Position numbers and translations under genes: made by a program
From: Varroa destructor
Taxonomy: Eukaryota > Arthropoda > Arachnida > Mesostigmata > Varroidae
Length of the DNA: 64,000 nt
Reading direction: 5' to 3'
Assembly (NCBI RefSeq): GCF_002443255.2
Contig: NW_019211457.1
Location: 17,728,242-17,792,241 of the forward strand
In this document: positions 3,944 through 52,594 of the stretch, piece by piece
Layout of the letters: each line of letters opens with the position of its first letter
How positions within the stretch are numbered: position 1 is the first letter of the stretch
Notes under the pieces: generated by a model
Told to the model about the DNA's origin: nothing
The model's input: the letters and a program-made list of their open reading frames with translations, nothing else
The model's database searches: none

Positions 3944-6900
3944 TTTAGCGACTCTGTCAGTATATGTGGAGTACGATTTCAGCGGGAATAACGGTGGCTG
4001 TATTCGGTCACGGGTCTCTTTAGGAACGAAGCATCAATTACTTGCATACAATAGCTTAGACCAACCAAATATATCATAACGAACAGCTTCTACTTGAGAA
4101 AATTTAAACCAAGAAGAAACTTATGAAACGGTAAGCATCCTATTGATTTGGACTAAACTACGCGTTTCGCCCGTGTGGGGGCGCTTTGTTACTTTCACGG
4201 TAGCGGTTGTTGTATTTCATTACACGACGTCTGAAAGCACAGGACATGCTCCAACCCAAAACGCGTGCACTTCCTATCGGCTGAGTAAACGAAGTCAGTC
4301 AACCATTTGAAAGATAAAAACGTCCGTTAACCCAAACAAAAGTAAACTAGGAAACGTTACGATTTTTTTCATGTTTTGTCGTATCTTAACAAAGTCCAGT
4401 AATAAACTGTTGGACAGTCATTGTAACTAACGCGTACTGTCGTAACATGTATGTTATGTTGGCGTCCCAGATGTATACTAAATACATAATATAACCTATA
4501 ATATTAGCGGACCCAGTGATAACCGGTTCATCTCAACAGCATACAGTTGACAAGAAATTAGGTAAGCCATATTTAGTTGGGGTCCGCTTCAATCCTGATA
4601 TGTGTATAGAGAAAATATTTACAGATGAAGATATGACTAACCCAGAGGTATTTTAGGAAAACTGGGCATATTACTTTGGTGGATACTCGCAAATGAACAA
4701 AATTTTTAAGAGGGGTTCTTTGTTGATTTATTTTCTTAGTGTTATTAGATAGAATACGCTCAAAACATACCAGTGCCGAATGATACAAATGTATCAGGTA
4801 GGTTTGGCAGATTATTTACTATGTATAGCTTACCTAATAATAGAGTCAGCATAGAAGATAAATATTAATGGATATATGAGTTTTTTAAGCTCAAACGTGT
4901 CAAACCTCGAAACTGTGTCCAAGTATTTTGAATTCACACGTCAAATATTTCAATATAAGCATATTGTATTTTTTTCTTCGAGTGCTGGAAATTGCACGAG
5001 TACCTATTAAAACGACCTATTTTATTCTACAATTAGCTCAATAGTCATTATTTACTAATTCAATGTTGGTTTTTTCTAGGGCACTTCAGAGAACTCCGGA
5101 TGCTGTCTTTGATACGAAAACAGTAAAGCAATGTTGGTTAAACTTAAATGCAAGAAAAATCGTCGTTATTAATCTAATCAGGACATATGACTATAAGTAG
5201 CTGACTGACAGCATAAATTCCGAAAATAAGTTACACTACTGTATACATAATAGTTGTTCAGCGATGAATCACGAAGGTCTTACGAAAGCAATTATAGCAG
5301 ATCTATATTATTCGAGGACATTATGAAGCTGCATTTCTTCTGAATGCATCACAGCACAACAACGATCCGTCAGAAGGTGAAACACATTTAGACTGAATTA
5401 AGTGCGACTCAAATCTATTTATTCATCTTAGTCAAATTCTATTTACCTTTGATGGTAGTGGTCAAAAACTTACAGGACAACTACAAAATATCTTAATATC
5501 AGAGAGAGTATCCAGAACCGTTCAAGACGCTTCGCGTTATGCGAGTCTTGAGGTAAAAACGAATTTAAGAGATTTGAAGTATGATGCCCGAGGGTAACCT
5601 AATGTCTCAAATGATTTTCCTCGCATCTAAAGTATCTTATGCATCGTGATGCTCATGGGAATCGCGTTTCCTGAGACGTCTATAGTGGATCTCACGGCAA
5701 AGCAAATGACAATATATCGGTTTACCTAATTTATCCTATCGCACTTGAAGTAAATTCCCATTCGTTTCCGCGAATTCTGGCTCCCATTTCCTAAGATTGG
5801 TGTTGAGCGCTTTCGTTGCCACGAGCACAAGGACAGTAGCGGCGAACAACTAGAAAATACACGAGGTTATTTCCGGTCACTACGCGCTCATTTTCAGTGC
5901 TCATTTTTCCACTGCAGAATCTTTCTAAATGGCGCCTATTCGAAGCGTCTCGTACGTTGTATTTTATAATATATATATTTAATAATTTTTCTGTTTAAGT
6001 TTTTTTTCAGGTAGTGCTATAGTAAACAGTGATTTATCGAACTTTGAATGTCCTGAATAATGTGTCAAATTGAGCTCTGCAGTGTGATCGATGATATTCT
6101 CAACAAATTGCACATTTGATTATGAAACGTCACTTTAAAGGTCTTTTTCATGTAGAATTTCAGCCTTTCGATATATAGATATATATCGATATATAGATTT
6201 TGGAAGCAAACACTAATATGAGCCCAGTGTTGACCACTATACTTAAGTATAGTATATACACATACTGATGATCTCAATTTTATCTCAGCAGTACATATAT
6301 CCAGGATATGGCGTGAACTTAGACAACGTTCAGGTCTGTTTGTACATCGAACGGCTGATGTTACACAAACACAATATTATTTGTTCATCTTTTTGCTATC
6401 CCCCTGGCTTGAGTGATTACTACAAATCGAGCTTACGGAGGCGTGAGTGGGTAATCTCAATAGTATTGATCTTGTTCCAGATGGATTTTCCATGCACCGA
6501 AGGCATTAAGCGATGTTATTTGTATAAGTACACTTATATGTCAGAACCAGTCGATACTCAAGTGTATAAAAAGACGGAGTGCATAAACTAGTCGTTGCAT
6601 ATAGTTACTAAGAATATCCGATCAAGCGTTGCTTCTCAGTCGAAATTCGTTTATCGGATAAATGCGTATATATGAAGTATCTCACTTTTTTTGTGAATTT
6701 TCTACACACATGGGGTTTTGTCTTAAAACTGAAATCTATGCGATCTAGTGGTTCGTGACAGAGTAGTCATCTAGTTGGCTTATTCTAGCGTACAGCTCAC
6801 CGTAAAATAAAATCCTCTCAGCGTAGAAAAATCAGCTCAAAGGGACTATTTCACCGAGACGATTTGCGGCGGACGGATAATACGCAGTCACGAACACTCA

Positions 6901-26788: not shown

Positions 26789-27040
26789 ATGGCCTTCTTG
26801 GCACCCACAACAGAACTCTTTGTATTGGCGACCCAGGTGGGCTCGATATGGGAACGAATCGAAGAACCGTTCACGTTAGAGAAACTAAATCATGTTCTAT
26901 TCGCTGAAGGCGTGAATGCAATTTACAAAGTGGGTGGACATGTGTGGGTCGTGGAAACCGCAATGCGTTGTGATGTAGACTTTTTGCAATGCAAATTAAA
27001 TAGAATTAGCCTTAACCTGATGTTCTACAGGGAGGTATAA
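26789..27040 (+). CDS. Hypothetical ORF, 83 residues
   Basis: An ATG in good context (AAAATGG) opens 83 codons of balanced composition, including EEPFTLEKLNHVLFAEGVNA and YKVGGHVWVVETAM. No family was recognised. A CAG|GTGGGC inside could act as a donor. No clear polyadenylation signal or partner exon was found. It is listed because its composition looks more like protein than most open frames here, but chance is a fair explanation. Confidence 0.25.
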   Translation: MAFLAPTTELFVLATQVGSIWERIEEPFTLEKLNHVLFAEGVNAIYKVGGHVWVVETAMRCDVDFLQCKLNRISLNLMFYREV

Positions 27041-27261
27041 CTTAAAGCGAATCTGTGATTAGTGTGCATCCCAAACGATCTAAGATCTACAGGATGATCG
27101 AATGATTCAGCAGTTGGGCGCAACACCCGTAATATCTCACCGTCTACCTTTAATTACGTTAGTAAACCCTTGCCAAAGGTGTGCCAGGATTACTCGGTTG
27201 TTCTCTGTTGACTGCGACTTCTCGAAGACCGAGGTGATTAGATGAAAATTTTTTTTTTATT

Positions 27262-27299
27262 AAAAAACCATATATATATATATATATATATGGTTTTTT
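27262..27299. repeat. Perfect A/T-rich palindrome around (TA)10
   Basis: AAAAAACCA, (TA)10, then TGGTTTTTT form a perfect 38-bp palindrome, bordered by further T runs on both sides. It could extrude as a cruciform or be the fused end of a small element. Confidence 0.95.
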
Positions 27300-28129
27300 T
27301 TTAAATATGTTTAATTGACCAGAGGTACTGGATAGAACTACCAGGTCCAGTACTATTGGGCCTAGTAGTTCTGTCCAGTTCTTCTTGTGCCTTTCTGGGC
27401 TGCTATGTTTTTCTATTTGCTATGCAATCTTTGTTTTCTCCAGTGGTACACTTCCTGATGGTTAATATGTTATAGGTCAACTCATAATAATCATACATTT
27501 ACGTGCAAAAAACGTAACTTTTGACACAGAACCGTAATGTTTGGTCTTCGTACTGGGTGTTTTGGGTTGAAGAATACATTAAAAAAACAAGTTCCTAGGA
27601 GACCTGAAAAATTAGGCCATTCCTCTTACCACAAATCAATAACCATGAATCATCGCTTGTGGCGTTGCAATACAACTGAGTACCTCACTAAAACGATTAC
27701 CCCTTTTATATTGGTATTAATACACACAGAATAGTGCTTTATTTTGCTAGAATATTTCCGGGACTATTCGCCGGATTAGGTTACTACACTTTTTCGAGAT
27801 TATGTGTGCTATACTCTTGTTAAAATCTTCGCACAAGTGGCTGTAACTCAGTATCACCTATGAACCTATTGTAAACACCGTCATGCACAGGAAAACGCTC
27901 GCTCTTCCCGCGTTCCCAGTAAAAACATTTTTGACAGGAACTGGCTCAATAGCCGATGTTATCGTTACGGGTCCTTGAGATAAATTGATTAACCACTCAA
28001 GATAAACACACTTATATAGTTGCTCCCTCCGTCGCTTCTCCTGTCGAGATGTTGCGTCATGAAGTGACTGATAATATTAAGCAGTCGTTTCGCTGTATAA
28101 AAGCGCAACGTAAGTATGCAATACCAATC

Positions 28130-28935
28130 ATAAATGTCGAACTCAAACACAGTCGCTTGTGTTTCATCGTAAACAACTACGTAATCAATAGAAGATGTCG
28201 AAATCCTCATCCGACTCGGGAACTCTGTCGAACAAAATGGATACCTCATCATCATCGGCTACGAGACTGCTCCTACAACTGGTATTATTCATATCCAAAA
28301 ATATGTTAGGTTTAATCTCCCCGGACTTTCAACTCTGTCAAATCTCAACCCCCAACTCAGTCCCATATCGAAACCGTATGTGGAACAGAAAACAGAAATA
28401 AGCAGTATTGTTCGAAGTCTGGTACCTTTCAAGGATTCGGAACATCAAGATCTCAAGGCAATAGAAGCGACTTGGAAAGCGCAATTAATTCGTCACTTAT
28501 GACATGACGTGAAGTGGCTGAACTACACCCCTCTACGTTCGTACGTTACCATAAAAGATTATATGGATTACGAAATTTACTGGTTCCGATTGAGCCTCGG
28601 AACGTGTTTACATCCTTTATGGTCCGACACGCACGGACAAACCCTGTGCTGCTGCTCAGATTGCTTCTCCTGGAAGGGTCTATTACAAAAATCAGTCTCA
28701 ATGGTGGCATAACTATCAACAGGAGGAAACCGTCATATTGGACGACTTTTATGGCTGGCTCCTCTGGGATGAGTGACTCAAAATCTGTGACCGATATCCC
28801 TACAGAGTCGAAAAAAAAGGCTCCCACGAAGAATTTACAATTACACTATTACCTCAAAAGTTCACCCGACTTCGTGGTACAAATTACTTGGATTTGACCC
28901 CGCTTCTCTATTTAGTGATAGCTCACTCGCTCTAA
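28130..28935 (+). pseudogene. Endogenous circovirus/cyclovirus-like Rep (CRESS DNA virus) relic
   Basis: A broken copy of the replication-associated protein of circular ssDNA viruses. Rolling-circle motif I appears as CFIVNN (28160-28177), motif II as GIIHIQ (28281-28298) and motif III as QYCSKSG (28403-28423). Then come a conserved linker (HPSTFVRYHKRLYGLRN, from 28526), a worn Walker A GPTRTDK (28621-28641), Walker B VILDD with FYGW (28732-28758) and the following CDRYPYRV block. The order and spacing are those of a Rep with an HUH endonuclease and an SF3 helicase. The pieces lie in three reading frames. Frame changes fall between motifs I and II, II and III, and the linker and Walker A. 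In-frame stops lie at 28505-28507 and 28774-28776. The Walker A glycines are partly lost. It cannot encode an active Rep. No capsid gene is seen beside it. The ends of the insertion are approximate. Confidence 0.87.
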
Positions 28936-28939
28936 TAAT

Positions 28940-31900
28940 AGAACGATGGTAAATACTGAAAATGACTTATCAATAAATTTGCTTAGTGCCGTAAGTTGGG
29001 CAGCCAGTCTGGCGTTTGTTTTGAGCCTCTTTGATTAATAAAGGAACCGACCGGTATCCTTCTGATTGACCGAAGCATAATTCACGCACCCGCTTGCTTA
29101 CACCTGTCTGCTACAGCCGTAGCATCAGCGGTGTTAAAAATTTATAAGCTCCATAACTTGTTTTCTGACGTTGTTTCAAAGAAACAATCTTTGCCTTGCC
29201 AGTAATGAGATCTCTTTACCATATTACCGATAGCCTTGTGCACTCTTCAATAACTACTGCTAGCTGGCACTGTTTTCTATGCAGGTCGTTAGTGAACGAA
29301 AGCTCACAGCGAAAAGTAAACACTCCTCGTAGGGAATGTCACGTTCCACTCACGTTACGATGTCGTCTGCTCCCGGTTCCTAACTGCTATTTTATCCTTT
29401 GTTCACTTACTTCATAGAGGAGCACCGCACATGCGACACGCATTAGGTATTGAGCACCGGTTTTTCAAAGAAGCTTCTCTAAAGAGCGCTGCGAGCCGCT
29501 TCAAAGCAAAGTAACGGAACGAGTCAGGTACAGAACGTCTGTGGTTGTTGAAAAGCCGACAGATTAAATATAAGGTCGAAGAATACTTCGAAGTATGCGT
29601 GACGCGAAACCCAATGACCTGTTCATTGCTTTTCAAGAACCGAAAAGAGGGTATAGTAGAAAGAACCTATTATCACTGCTTTGGTATTCCCTCTGTACTA
29701 AATGCTATTTCCACTTTACTTAGAACGAATAGCATTATCGAATAATAGAACAAAGACGTTCTTCGTCGTGTGCATCAATGGGAACGTTATCACGATTTTA
29801 CTCACACACATAATGGTTTCTAATAAAGAAATTTGCTTTTGAACTTGAGTGGCGAAGAAAGGTGTACTCGTTCGAGTTCACCTCCCTTTGCCATTCAAGT
29901 TGTCTAACAGGACTCGGCTGTAAATGTAGGCCCCCTATCTTCGTGTATAGTTCAGTTTAACGGCATCTGTACTCATTTTGAAATTCCTATTAAGACCTGA
30001 TTCTTACCAAGGGTACTATAAGAATATAGGAAGAAGATAATCTCCAGTAAATACGCTCTGACTAATTATTGTTTACTTTTTTTATTCAATATACATCTGT
30101 CGTGTAAAATTTGCTATCAGAATGTATTTCTAATAAAGATAGCATAAAATAATTCACACATCTAATAAGCCTTTTGATTAGACAATTTTTTTCTGTATTT
30201 ATCACTATGTTAGAATGCTTCACTTACCGATAATAATTTTAAAAAACTTCATCTAATAGAAATTTAAGATACTCACATTGGAAAGAGATTTACAGGTTAA
30301 ATAGAAAATCCATTATGTGTAAATCGTAGAAATGTATCTGCCTTTTCTGCTATTCGTTTCGATGAACAAATGAGTAATTATTATCGAAAACATGGATAAA
30401 CAATAAGGACCGCAATGTCGCTATTATTCGCATAGGAAACGTTACACTACCGACGATATTGCTATTTTTTTAGGCCCCAGGTTTTTGGTATTGGGCAAAA
30501 GGCCTCTTGACAATTTGGGTCTTTTCAGCCTTGTTTCCATTGCATCCCTGCTATTTTCACTGAAACAGTCTAGTGACCTTGGCCCATCCTGTGCATCCAG
30601 TGATTTTTTCTAGCAGTTGTGGCGTAATTTACTGCCTCTTGACCTGCTTCCTACATCCTTATTATGGCTGCAAGAATAAATCGTTTTCGGTGAGACATAG
30701 TATTACTATAATCGGCCACTGGACCAAACCATGCACTTTCTGACACAAATCGACAGAAGAAAAGTGCTAAATATGTCGTATAGTACTAAGCTTCTACATA
30801 AGTGGCTTTTTATTTTTTATAATTTATAATACGCTGTGTTTTTCAAACATTATATGTATTGTATTCAAAGCTGATTTACAAATCAACTAGTAAAAGAAAT
30901 ACGAAAAAAAATCTTACGAACCTTGTCCATTTTTGCTAGTGCGTTGTCCGCTCCACGCTGGGAACTCCTACTCCACAATATCTTGCTGTCTGGCTAGCTG
31001 TCTCTAGAAGCTTCTCCTACAGCCGTTAGGTTATCCGGAGGTAGCGACCTATGTTCAGCTCCTATTATTCATCTACACAAGCCCACAATCGTTTAAGGAT
31101 ATGTTCCTTCACATTTTAGGTAACGAAGAAGTCGATAGACAATACATCTTCTTCATGACACGAGGACTCAACCTGAAGCAGAAAAATTGGGGGTTTAATA
31201 AGGGACACAAGTGTTTACTTCACTAGTGTCTTAAGTTTCGTAAGTTGTGTGAAGAAAAAATGCTCCTAATCATCAACATAATCGTGTTTTTGTTTTATGT
31301 AAAAAGTTATTAGTTCTAACACGTTTCCTCTTTCGCGGAACGCTAATCTTCCAGGTGTAGGCCTCGGGCGAATAAATATCGACAGTGTATCCGAATCGTA
31401 GAGTCCGCTATAATCTCAACGTACTGACGGGTAGCTAAAATTTTGGCTAGTAAAAGTAACTTCATAGAAACCCACTACACACGAGTGCATTAAACACAAG
31501 AGTAGCTGGACTTGTTCAAGTTAGACACTCTGAACTTCGTAAGAAGGCGAAAAAAAAACCCTTTTCTGAGTTGAGTCAGTTCGGCAAATGCAGACACTAT
31601 GCCCTACGGAGCTTCAGCCTGGAATATTCAGGTAAGCCTTTTATATAAAACTGGAAAAGGAATAGTCGGACAAAGGAAAAAGGCCAAAAAGCGGTTCCTC
31701 TATTCTCTTCGTCAAGCCTTTTACGGACAGCAGGACAACTAACGGCCGACCATCCTTTGCTCTTTTAAAGCATGCACAAGAGAATATCTTCAAACAATCA
31801 TTCGTCTTCTACAACAAGCTCTTCAGATGATAGCTTTCGGACTCTTCGTATCTTGAATTAGGGTTTCAGTTTGTCTATATTGTTCACAACGGCTATCGTA

Positions 31901-33417: not shown

Positions 33418-34916
33418 CTGGCAAAAAGGTGTGTAAGGACACATGCACAACACGTTAGGTCGTTGTATGTTGTCTCAGACTTCGTTAACAAATTCGTTTT
33501 ATTTCGACTAAATTAACGAATTTAAACAGAAATGCTTGTTCAACGTACCAAGCCGCTCGAAAAGTCGTCGAGTTTCGTTAAAAGGATCTGAGGCGAACTC
33601 TTCAAACTTCACTTGAATTACGTCGACTCCGTTAAAGAACTTTTTAAAATTCTCAAACACTTGAACGTCTTCGGAGATTTCCGAACATAAGGTGTTACAC
33701 CGAAACTGGCACCAGCCTAAGGCACTCCTGAAATCATTGATAAACGTCTTTGTCAATTTCGATGCGAAGTAACGAGGATACAATTGTAAACGCAGCGTAT
33801 CGTTCCCCACTGCTTTTGAGCGAACGCGTCGAAAAAAAATAGACACGAGATCAAATACAAATCAATGCAATTTATCATTACGAGCACAACATTACTTCTA
33901 AATTAATATAGTTTCTAATATCACACTTGTACCTAGTCGAGCGGACAAAAACAGTGAGGTTGTCACAAGTATTTATTCCGCACAAAATCAGTATAATTGA
34001 TCATTTCGAGACATAGGCAAGTTGTACGGTCTACTAAAGATGCAGTCTTTGTCCGCGTAAAGCTCCCGCGTAAATTAACGCTGCTCACTCGCTCGTCGTC
34101 GGTAATAACATGTAGGATTGAGCAAATCAGAATAGGGTGACTCAACGTTGACGCGGCGCGCTTTGATGCAGGCGTGTTTAGAGTGCATGAAAATAGTATC
34201 AATGGCCTCCATGTCTTTGTTTATGTTCGGCTCATAAGACGATGACAATCAGAGAAAAAGCAGACAATAACAATTTAAAGTTTTGTAATTACTTAGTTGA
34301 AACTCTAATAGAGTCGAGACGAGTAGCTTTATTAATCTGTTCATAGATATGAACGTTTAATGGTCATGAAAACGGAAGTTCAGGCTAGCACGTAGTTAGT
34401 TTTCGTTACAACGACATGGCGATGTTACGTGCTTGGACACCTAATGCTTTAGAAGGCCCAGCTTTTTTTTCGTTAGGTCACTTCGAAAGGAAATATCACG
34501 TAAGTAAATTTCGTCCTTGAACATATTTATTAGAAAAAGCGCGACAGCAAACACGAGTACAAAATTGTTAACCATCGGACGGGTCGGGACGGGTGAAAGT
34601 TGATCGAGTCGAGTTCTTTTAGACATAGAAAGTTCCTTCGAAAAACACCTACTGCTTATTGTCAAGATGAAAAACCCGTTTCTCCGAAAGCTTGTCCTGC
34701 TCCCCTCAATAAAATATAAGGCTTGTAAAGGCCATCCGGTATATGAAGCTCATCGTAGAATTAAAGGAACCTTTCAGCGAAAAAGCCGCCCAAACCATGT
34801 GTTTTCTTAGTGGCTATCATACCTAGGTAGACGTGATTGCGCCTTATAGTAATACAATGGCTAATGAGGCAGCGTCTCGATAAGAGGGACGGCTCATCGA
34901 TAGTCAGGGTCCATTA

Positions 34917-50036: not shown

Positions 50037-50172
50037 AAGACGACGTAGTGATTCTTCATTAATCATTGATTGCTATCTTGATTAACGCACGGTTTTGAAA
50101 TGATAAGACGACGTAGTGATTCTTCATTAATCATTGATTGCTATCTTGATTAACGCACGGTTTTGAAATGAT
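50037..50172. repeat. Perfect tandem duplication, 2 x 68 bp
   Basis: Copies at 50037-50104 and 50105-50172 are identical by eye, each starting AAGACGACGTAGTG and ending GGTTTTGAAATGAT. It lies just downstream of the 49-kb mariner relic. The lack of differences suggests a recent duplication or an assembly artefact. Confidence 0.95.
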
Positions 50173-52594
50173 ATACATACATGTACATACGGACTTTCAC
50201 CTTTCATACGGACTATGTCTTTTAAGCGCTTGCGCCGTTCTCAAAAGGGTACCTTTCTGCGATCTGGTAATAATAGAAATGGGCTACTCCTAAGCCTTCC
50301 ATAACTTTGTTCCATCATGAAATGACTATTAAAGGAGGTAAATTGACCTAACAGCGTACAGACGCTGAACATAGTATTGATGCGAGAATAATGATGGTAG
50401 AAGCTTGTAATTATTATCGATCGGTACATAGCCTATGGTAACACGCGGTTGGGTACGTTGTGTTGCCTTCATCTAATAAATGGCAGCTATTGCGAGCCGT
50501 GTCCAGAGATAGTTGCGAAGCATAATGGTAATCGTAGTTGCTCGTTACGAAGCTACGGGATTCTGTGGAGAAATGGGGTATGGGACGAGCTGACAGAAAG
50601 AAGACTTCCATGGAATCTGCTACTACCGTTATAGTTCTGTGCTGTTGTAGGCTCTATCTACACACCGATAGTTGTATTGCGCCAACCAATTGCGTCTTCT
50701 CTGCTCATAGGCCGATAAAAGTAACATCCCCGACACGGTTCCCTTCCACAACATACACAGGGGATCCGACGATGCGTTCGACTTTACTGTGAATTTTCAC
50801 GAGCATTAGCTTCATGTAAACCCCGGCATTTGTGGTCTTCTAGTAAAAAGAACAACTAAGAATCCTGTCAACAAAAGACGCGAAATTCGTGTCTGCTATT
50901 CTGTGTGACGCAGACAGATTCGTGTTTATGCCGCTCTCGTACAGCGAGCCTAGTTTGCAATGAGGAATTTTCGAAGACCGGAGACTTAAAGCTACAAACA
51001 GAATAAGCTTAGTAGCACGCCGACGATGGTCCAGAGTCACGGCAGCAAATTGACGTGGTACAGAAGAACCATAGAACGAAAGGGGTTATATAAGTGTAGA
51101 TGGGTATTGGGTACGGTTTCACGTGTCGCTGAATAAGAACTAGTACTAAATAGCGATAGACCGTCGACTATGTAGATAATACACGGGAAAGACCTCGCGA
51201 GGTGTATTAATAATCATGCAGAGGGGCCGACAACAAAATCATGCGTATACGGTGATGACCGAAAAGAATCGCTGCTAAGACTGGTACGTGCAGAAAAGTT
51301 ACGCGCTCTATGACGATACCTCGACCTTGGTGCATTACGTATTAAGTGTTGGATGGAGTCAGTTAAAGTTGAAAATGTGCGACTTAAGTTTAAGAGGATC
51401 AACGAACACTGTTGTGCCAGCTGAAATTGCCAGCAAAAAAAAGTCTGATAGGCAGAAAACATACTATGAGCCCAGAAGTCTGATATTTGAAAGTTTTTCC
51501 GCTTTAATCGTGTCCCTAACTTAGCATGTAGGCCATAACCATCAAACGAAATAAGGCTGTTGATGCACCATGATTCCTATTACTATTTAATCGTTCAAAT
51601 ATTCCACGCTATATTTACAAATTTGATGTCGCGAGTTCATGGTAAGGTGGAATATCTATGTAAAGTTCGAAGGGATAACATAGATATTGTATTATCCTGA
51701 ACTGGATAAGTGTTCAGGGATGAAAAAATCTTAGATCGAGAATAAAATTCTGATTATTTATTATATTAGAACGTATTGAATGATGCAAAGCGTTTTCTAA
51801 CTAATTCAACATGTTGCATTTAGCGTTCACTAAGCGATAATAAAATACAATTGCACGATGTGCTGAATATACATCACATGAATTATTTATTTTAATGTGT
51901 TCACGATACAAGTGTGTGTATACCTAAGTATTATAATATGGATAATGAGTGCCGCTATATTAAACACCGATGCATTTACATATATCGCCTTCAGATTTGA
52001 CTTCGATGAGAAATAGGTGAGCGAGTGAGCTTCGGCCAGTAATGTCAAAAGGTGTTCGACATATCGTTATATCCGTAACTTTTCAGATATGAACTTTCGG
52101 CAGCACTAGATCATATGTGAATTGCGTTGTTCAGAGTACCTTGTGGTGAAATATTTTCAGGTTGTTAGAAGTTGTTGGAGAACTTGAGGTGCTACGTCGT
52201 ACGAGACTAAGGTGGAAAGAACAGGAGGAAAACAGTTGAATTTGGTGGAAGAGTAGCACCTCTAGAGAGGAACGGAACCCTACAGAAAGATGGATGCAAT
52301 ATATGAGCACACTAGCCGTTTCTACAAATCGTTTGTTTTTCATTAATGTTAAACCACCTACAAAGCCAAGGCCCTAGATGAGAAAATCCAGGGTTTAGTA
52401 GGTGAGAGTTCCATACCACTTGGTAAATACGTTAGTCGTGTGGTCTGGTCCGTACGGTACATTCGCTCCTGTGAAATATAGATTCGCAGCGGTTAGTCTC
52501 TTGTTGTCTGCTGGCTTTAAGCAGAAGCTTTAATCTGCAGAGGAGAAATGTAATATATGTGTATATAAGAGTTAATAAAATATCTCGCAGTTAT

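Follow-up and report, generated by a model that had tools for sequence, protein, structure and literature searches.

Rep sequences related to those of cycloviruses are already on record for Varroa destructor. According to the sections of the paper available to us, Liu 2011 reported 56 Rep sequences in this mite, nearest to cycloviruses and with mostly unrelated flanks, and few capsid sequences, all of them from other hosts (PMC3198968). Similarly, the available part of Dennis 2018 lists 19 sequences in V. destructor that cluster with cycloviruses and gives no new cap sequence (PMC6069186). The retrieved text of a third paper repeats the mite Rep finding and describes a cyclovirus fossil with Rep and a putative capsid in Hymenolepis microstoma (PMC6186406). 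Among the matches listed in our literature search, no later work on Varroa Rep fossils appeared beyond these three papers. A sequence-only reading of the DNA studied here had pointed to a decayed Rep gene and had called such copies under-sampled; for this host the latter does not hold, since the accessible text of the 2011 and 2018 reports already describes dozens (PMC3198968, PMC6069186). As far as those texts go, the locus described below may itself be one of the published 56 or 19 Varroa sequences.

We analyzed a window of 64 kb, meaning the whole stretch of DNA under study, together with related loci of the same genome. The window very probably contains an old, dead endogenous cyclovirus-like element of V. 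destructor, and its copies look like separate integrations rather than duplications. All seven peptides on which the sequence-only reading had relied are found in the six-frame ORF list, in the claimed order and on the forward strand (Table 1). Three of them contain CFIVNN, HIQ and YCSK, which we take to be rolling-circle motifs I, II and III. Followed from motif I, the frame homologous to Rep is 2, then 3 (motif II), 2 (motif III and the linker), 1 (Walker A and B) and 3 (C-terminus), which amounts to at least four frame changes from motif I onward; one more has to be counted if translation originally began at the frame-3 ATG at 28134, as we presume. The earlier description of decay across three frames with two stops is accurate: both stops are TGA codons, one in frame 2 (28505-28507) and the other in frame 1 (28774-28776). 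Walker A is degenerate (GPTRTDK). Open ORFs of sister copies match this remnant by tblastn with up to 110 bits, and the signal is beyond chance because their best score in the rest of the window is 22.7 bits and the best control scores are 23.1 bits for the reversed window and 26.6 bits for 10 block shuffles.

Table 1. Features of the endogenous element and its flanks in the window (positions are those of the window)
Feature	Position	Strand	Basis or remark
Left flank	26900..27780	.	no other genome copy except an AT-rich simple stretch
5' remains of other-strand genes (ORFa / capsid leader region)	27792..28025	-	tblastn
Decayed origin stem-loop, loop TAATATTAT at ~28071	28055..28090	-	motif scan
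Rep pseudogene	28134..28935	+	at least 4 frame changes, two TGA stops
Presumed rolling-circle motifs I (CFIVNN), II (HIQ), III (YCSK)	28160..28423	+	frames 2, 3, 2
CFIVNN	28160-28177	+	counted by hand from ORF starts
GIIHIQ	28281-28298	+	counted by hand from ORF starts
QYCSKSG	28403-28423	+	counted by hand from ORF starts
RYHKRLYGLRN	28544-28576	+	counted by hand from ORF starts
Open 60-aa piece with Walker A (GPTRTDK) and Walker B (VILDDFYGW) of the SF3 helicase	28594..28773	+	
GPTRTDK	28621-28641	+	counted by hand from ORF starts
VILDDFYGW	28732-28758	+	counted by hand from ORF starts
Rep C-terminal remains (CDRYPYRV), 3' of second stop	28777..28935	+	ORF list; sister-copy comparison
CDRYPYRV	28786-28809	+	counted by hand from ORF starts
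Right flank	28960..29900	.	no other genome copy found

The open 60-aa piece, the best preserved of the gene, carries a circovirus-type SF3 helicase domain: it matches PF00910 with 25.1 bits, above the Pfam cut-off of 21.5, and its PDB matches are Reps (8xms, E 8.9e-12; 7lar, E 2.2e-11), both presumably porcine circovirus entries. The C-terminal piece alone has a weak PDB match (E 0.52), and the window pieces with motifs I-III, each searched alone against Pfam, gave no family, PF02407 included, with the motifs themselves readable. The HUH endonuclease family PF02407 is above cut-off in four of ten sister ORFs and also in L047 and L053, and one sister Rep ORF matches PDB 7lar with E 6.8e-51. The original proposal, that an animal chromosome carries a decayed Rep of circovirus/cyclovirus type, is thus supported by PF00910, the PDB Reps and the sister-ORF tblastn matches. 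Rolling-circle and SF3 motifs are widespread, and for that reason a plasmid, phage or Helitron Rep could be thought to lie behind the remnant instead of an animal virus Rep. This source has next to no likelihood given that the best PDB sequence matches are circovirus Reps and that an origin loop and a capsid-like neighbor occur within the family. A plasmid Rep, a rival that the sequence-only reading had itself named, and a phage Rep were rejected after the phage and plasmid collections returned tblastn matches only at E 0.2 or worse, which is chance level; PHROGs gave a single match, at E 0.1, among five window pieces. Scans of IMG/VR with four queries produced no usable relative; one of them matched three stretches of 42 bases at 64%, which we regard as chance.

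The fossil is wider than the span of 28130..28935 first proposed, as DNA similarity to sister copies starts at about 27839 and protein similarity at about 27792. Judged from these alignments, it would extend from about 27792 and represent about 1.1 kb of virus genome, comprising leader, origin and Rep. On the reverse strand, the region 28025-27792 matches an ORF of L012 (53% over 81 aa, tblastn) and 27942-27823 an ORF of L019 (62.5% over 40 aa, tblastn), and the rest of the capsid-like gene past its start was not found in the window. The idea of a Rep fossil therefore stands and that of Rep by itself does not, because the fossil also includes an origin and the beginning of a second gene.

The window loop TAATATTAT occupies the same place as the loops of its sisters L017 and L012. 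About 5 bp of its stem are left, judged by eye, and it folds no better than shuffles (z -1.3). Among the six loops folded, only that of L042, with a 10-bp stem around TAGTATTAC, clearly exceeded its shuffles (z -4.7); the L017 loop also has a 10-bp stem (z -1.9), and the remaining ones, including that of the window, were unremarkable at z -0.3 to -1.3. The nonanucleotide TAGTATTAC is present in L019 and L042. The motif scan for origin loops found 12 sites within the elements, five of which are AT-rich, have no adjoining Rep 5' end and were set aside (two in L015, one in L021, two in L042). Six of the seven remaining sites adjoin a Rep 5' end, and all six lie on the strand opposite Rep (the window copy, WIN in the locus lists, and L019, L041, L042, L044 and L046), a count that refers to sites selected after inspection among loop-like candidates, looser motif variants giving sites on both strands. 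One L044 site was also scored as lying on the same strand, because the fused L043 query produced a spurious Rep match within the capsid leader, and the polarity of the L017 loop fits by homologous position only. In cycloviruses, rep is encoded on the complementary strand, opposite the origin nonanucleotide, according to the portion of PMC7184566 available to us, and this is the arrangement at all six loci with a clear loop, the window included. Because the origin loop lies on the strand opposite Rep, cyclovirus organization is favored over that of circoviruses, two options between which the sequence-only reading had not decided; this assignment is a placement by organization, not by tree, drawn from a comparison among the mite copies themselves.

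The element belongs to a large family. The 806-bp stretch itself occurs at 11 genome places, itself included, with 65-100% identity; a PF00910 search of the genome yielded 19 matches, and the L014 sister Rep ORF at least 64, which fall into at least 45 clusters (5 kb clustering). We compared the window and 22 fetched loci of 9.5 kb, plus one short locus, L053. Pairwise identity, rather than a tree, was used to sort them into two groups, an older one whose members are mostly decayed (the window, L012-L021 and L047) and a younger one in which more frames are open (L041-L046 and L053); L048-L052 were left outside this grouping. One further stretch, C25, matches C6:1738200-1747700 over almost all of the 9.5 kb compared and looks like an unplaced assembly duplicate of it.

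Host sequence adjoins the fossil on both sides inside a 52.9-Mb contig. The window has zero N, and the flanks are not viral and have no second copy beyond simple sequence. Assembly faults do occur in the family, for instance a 25-N gap in L042, beside one inverted arm and between the two, and an apparent assembly duplicate in L050/L051, so that contamination or assembly error might be suspected here as well; for the window its probability is negligible in view of the gapless sequence within a long contig, the decay of the copy and flanks that occur nowhere else beyond simple sequence. As to other features of the window, ten of the 11 other ORFs of at least 110 aa were scanned and gave no Pfam family above cut-off; the reverse-strand ORF at 33508-33858 weakly resembles sulfotransferases (PF13469, E 0.003, short of the cut-off) and is perhaps a host-gene exon, and a 68-bp unit at 50037-50173 is a perfect tandem duplicate.

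The sister copies show what the other strand of the source virus may have carried. They encode an Arg-rich protein on the strand opposite Rep, and its homologue in L053 is a 213-aa open ORF. Against the circovirus capsid family PF02443, this ORF scores 18.3 bits (E 0.003), short of the 36.2 bits set as cut-off, and this is the sole Pfam family for it up to E 1. A PF02443 search of the genome gave a best score of 23.8 bits, and a sequence search of PDB found no capsid entry up to E 10, the hits being unrelated proteins with E values of 0.2 or above. The L053 capsid-like ORF has 20 genome matches, which fall into 18 of the 45 clusters with Rep and one Rep-free place; for 19 of the 20, a Rep match is no more than 0.8 kb away. 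In 16 of these 19 cases the capsid-like gene is on the strand opposite Rep, with 5' ends facing in 13 (a figure that includes both C6 and its duplicate C25) and 3' ends facing in three. The presence of both junction types is consistent with a ring that was cut open at more than one place. In the other three cases, L043, L053 and C3:13737947, both genes are on one strand, the L043 junction being rearranged. The capsid leader of L043 is fused in frame to Rep within an open frame of 357 aa (positions 4448-5518, reverse strand), apparently through rearrangement of the junction between these genes.

Two further coding stretches precede the Arg-rich part. Between origin and capsid, the younger group has an extra conserved ORF of about 98 codons, in which third positions are the most different in 15 of 15 pairs of six loci (for instance 0.06/0.04/0.23 at codon positions 1/2/3) and whose frame has 0-2 stops versus 5-11 in the other two frames; against Pfam it gave nothing above cut-off (best E 0.09, L046). 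The capsid itself has an in-frame leader of about 88 codons ahead of the Arg-rich stretch, which is third-position biased in four of four younger-group comparisons with L053 and not against L047. In L046, about 0.5 kb, counted by hand, separates the origin from the methionine preceding the Arg-rich stretch. Weak circovirus-capsid matches were also seen at C4:35232242-35232472 and C2:52715696-52715860 (23.8 and 22.7 bits); they have no nearby Rep match, were missed by the search with the L053 capsid ORF and possibly represent another capsid lineage. A weaker one (16.1 bits), at C2:56368590-56368745 on the forward strand, lies about 0.7 kb from an opposite-strand Rep match, C2:56367754-56367909.

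High copy number, with at least 45 clusters, and the endonuclease and helicase domains kept in sister copies could also be explained by a selfish element, in which one Rep-bearing insertion spread within the mite genome through its own Rep, a possibility raised in the available part of Liu 2011 (PMC3198968). Several observations make such spread quite unlikely. The copies hold different parts of the viral ring, their ends, mapped by similarity only, are not coincident, and a comparison of about 3-6 kb per side among the 23 loci found no common flanks except in L050/L051. A capsid-like gene beside Rep in 18 of 45 clusters would be needless for a Rep-only mobile element. Moreover, many copies differ from one another with a third-position excess, in the younger group up to 0.16/0.04/0.57 at positions 1/2/3; third positions differ most, which places much of the divergence in a time when selection still acted on Rep. 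The excess is small in some older pairs, for instance L014-L021 (0.41/0.27/0.43). For the window copy, 14 loci were entered and three (L041-L043) dropped for too few aligned coding columns; position 3 was the highest in all 11 comparisons, with p<0.05 in six and the rest not significant. Its divergence thus partly predates integration, and the partial significance is as expected if some of it arose afterwards. Taken together, the fetched copies give the impression that related viruses integrated independently, rather than that one insertion was duplicated.

Five of the 23 loci contain internal inverted repeats of 217-882 bp, and none contains internal direct repeats of at least 100 bp. The arms differ by 0.5% in L043, 0.6% in L042, 2.8% in L045, 13.8% in L017 and 14.3% in L021. 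The Varroa species pair, with 0.38% divergence and a split 2-3 Myr ago as given in the accessible text of PMC6773775, offers a calibration on which the arms would have rough ages of ~3-5, 15-22 and 80-126 Myr, figures that depend on this single calibration and are subject to possible gene conversion, to arms possibly non-identical at the start and, for L042, to the 25-N gap adjoining one arm. An inverted repeat was sought in the window copy and none is present; its position 2 difference of 0.13 from L012 is only a loose bound on age, not a direct date. Next to L053, a second copy of the capsid leader (C1:76745919-76746221, reverse strand) is 97% identical and inverted, and is probably a further inverted duplicate. 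A literature search on inverted dimers, judged by title, found nothing related.

The arms also bear on whether the Rep copies have been maintained by selection as domesticated host genes. Open frames of 220-357 aa persist in several copies, and L021 keeps 244 codons open despite a 14% arm difference, for which the neutral chance of no stop is ~0.04. We nevertheless consider domestication very improbable: the window copy is plainly dead, three young copies are open by neutral expectation (chance 0.50-0.89, substitutions only), and the arm differences at codon positions 1/2/3 are 16/12/18 in L021, 10/8/12 in L017, 1/3/1 in L042 and 1/1/0 in L043, with no clear third-position excess by these raw counts, from which L045 was left out.

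Repeated integration of cyclovirus-like DNA remains our preferred explanation. The source virus would have had a circular single-stranded DNA genome with Rep on one strand and the capsid gene and origin loop on the other, and ~1.1 kb of it (leader, origin and Rep) would have entered the mite germ line and then decayed. Since the preserved part of the ring varies from copy to copy, we suggest that end joining at broken chromosomes captured pieces of replicating viral DNA, some of which had already undergone inverted rearrangement, and that Rep-guided cutting at the origin was not involved. A broader proposal, to which we give slightly less than an even chance, is that the family records an undescribed cyclovirus-like lineage with an extra conserved gene of ~98 codons and a long conserved capsid leader, both situated between the origin and the capsid core, that this lineage entered the germ line repeatedly in at least two waves (~80-126 and 3-22 Myr ago on the rough clock), and that the inverted-repeat arms, seen in five of 23 loci, serve as a built-in clock.

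These copies tie cyclovirus-like viruses to mites over long times. They also indicate, beside Rep in this mite, the capsid side that was not found in the 2018 screen, as far as its available text shows (PMC6069186). Since some copies retain parts of the remaining virus, their comparison may help to date old infections. Inverted repeats could date insertions without orthologues, which is otherwise hard for non-retroviral viral fossils.

In comparison with described systems, the kind and host of this fossil are already known, and the window copy is ordinary for this host. Host species, Rep kind and mostly unrelated flanks are the same as in the Varroa fossils of Liu 2011 and Dennis 2018, for which the available sections report rep and no cap (PMC3198968, PMC6069186); what is added here is the capsid-like gene, the origin loops, the extra ORF and the inverted-repeat structure. 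Capsid-bearing cyclovirus fossils as such are not new because of the H. microstoma case, which, like the Varroa family, has a capsid beside Rep; that capsid resembled a named cyclovirus capsid in the portion of PMC6186406 available to us, whereas the Varroa match to the capsid family is weak. CVe-Pseudomyrmex is likewise a cyclovirus-derived element in an arthropod germ line, but it is described as fixed, intact and expressed in the retrieved text of Dennis 2018 (PMC6069186), whereas the window holds a dead copy from a large family. Varroa mite associated virus 1 is also a circular Rep virus from V. destructor, but, unlike the fossils, it encodes both Rep and capsid in virion sense and has the nonanucleotide CAGTATTAC (PMC5834324). 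The family resembles the genus Cyclovirus, in which genomes measure 1.7-2.1 kb, in its Rep domains, in TAGTATTAC opposite Rep and in a capsid-like gene that is mostly divergent across the origin. Unlike that genus, the Varroa fossils have the extra ORF and the in-frame leader before the Arg-rich stretch, and the origin-to-methionine distance in L046 compares with a non-coding rep-cap region of 158 nt in duck associated cyclovirus 1, as given in the available part of PMC7184566.
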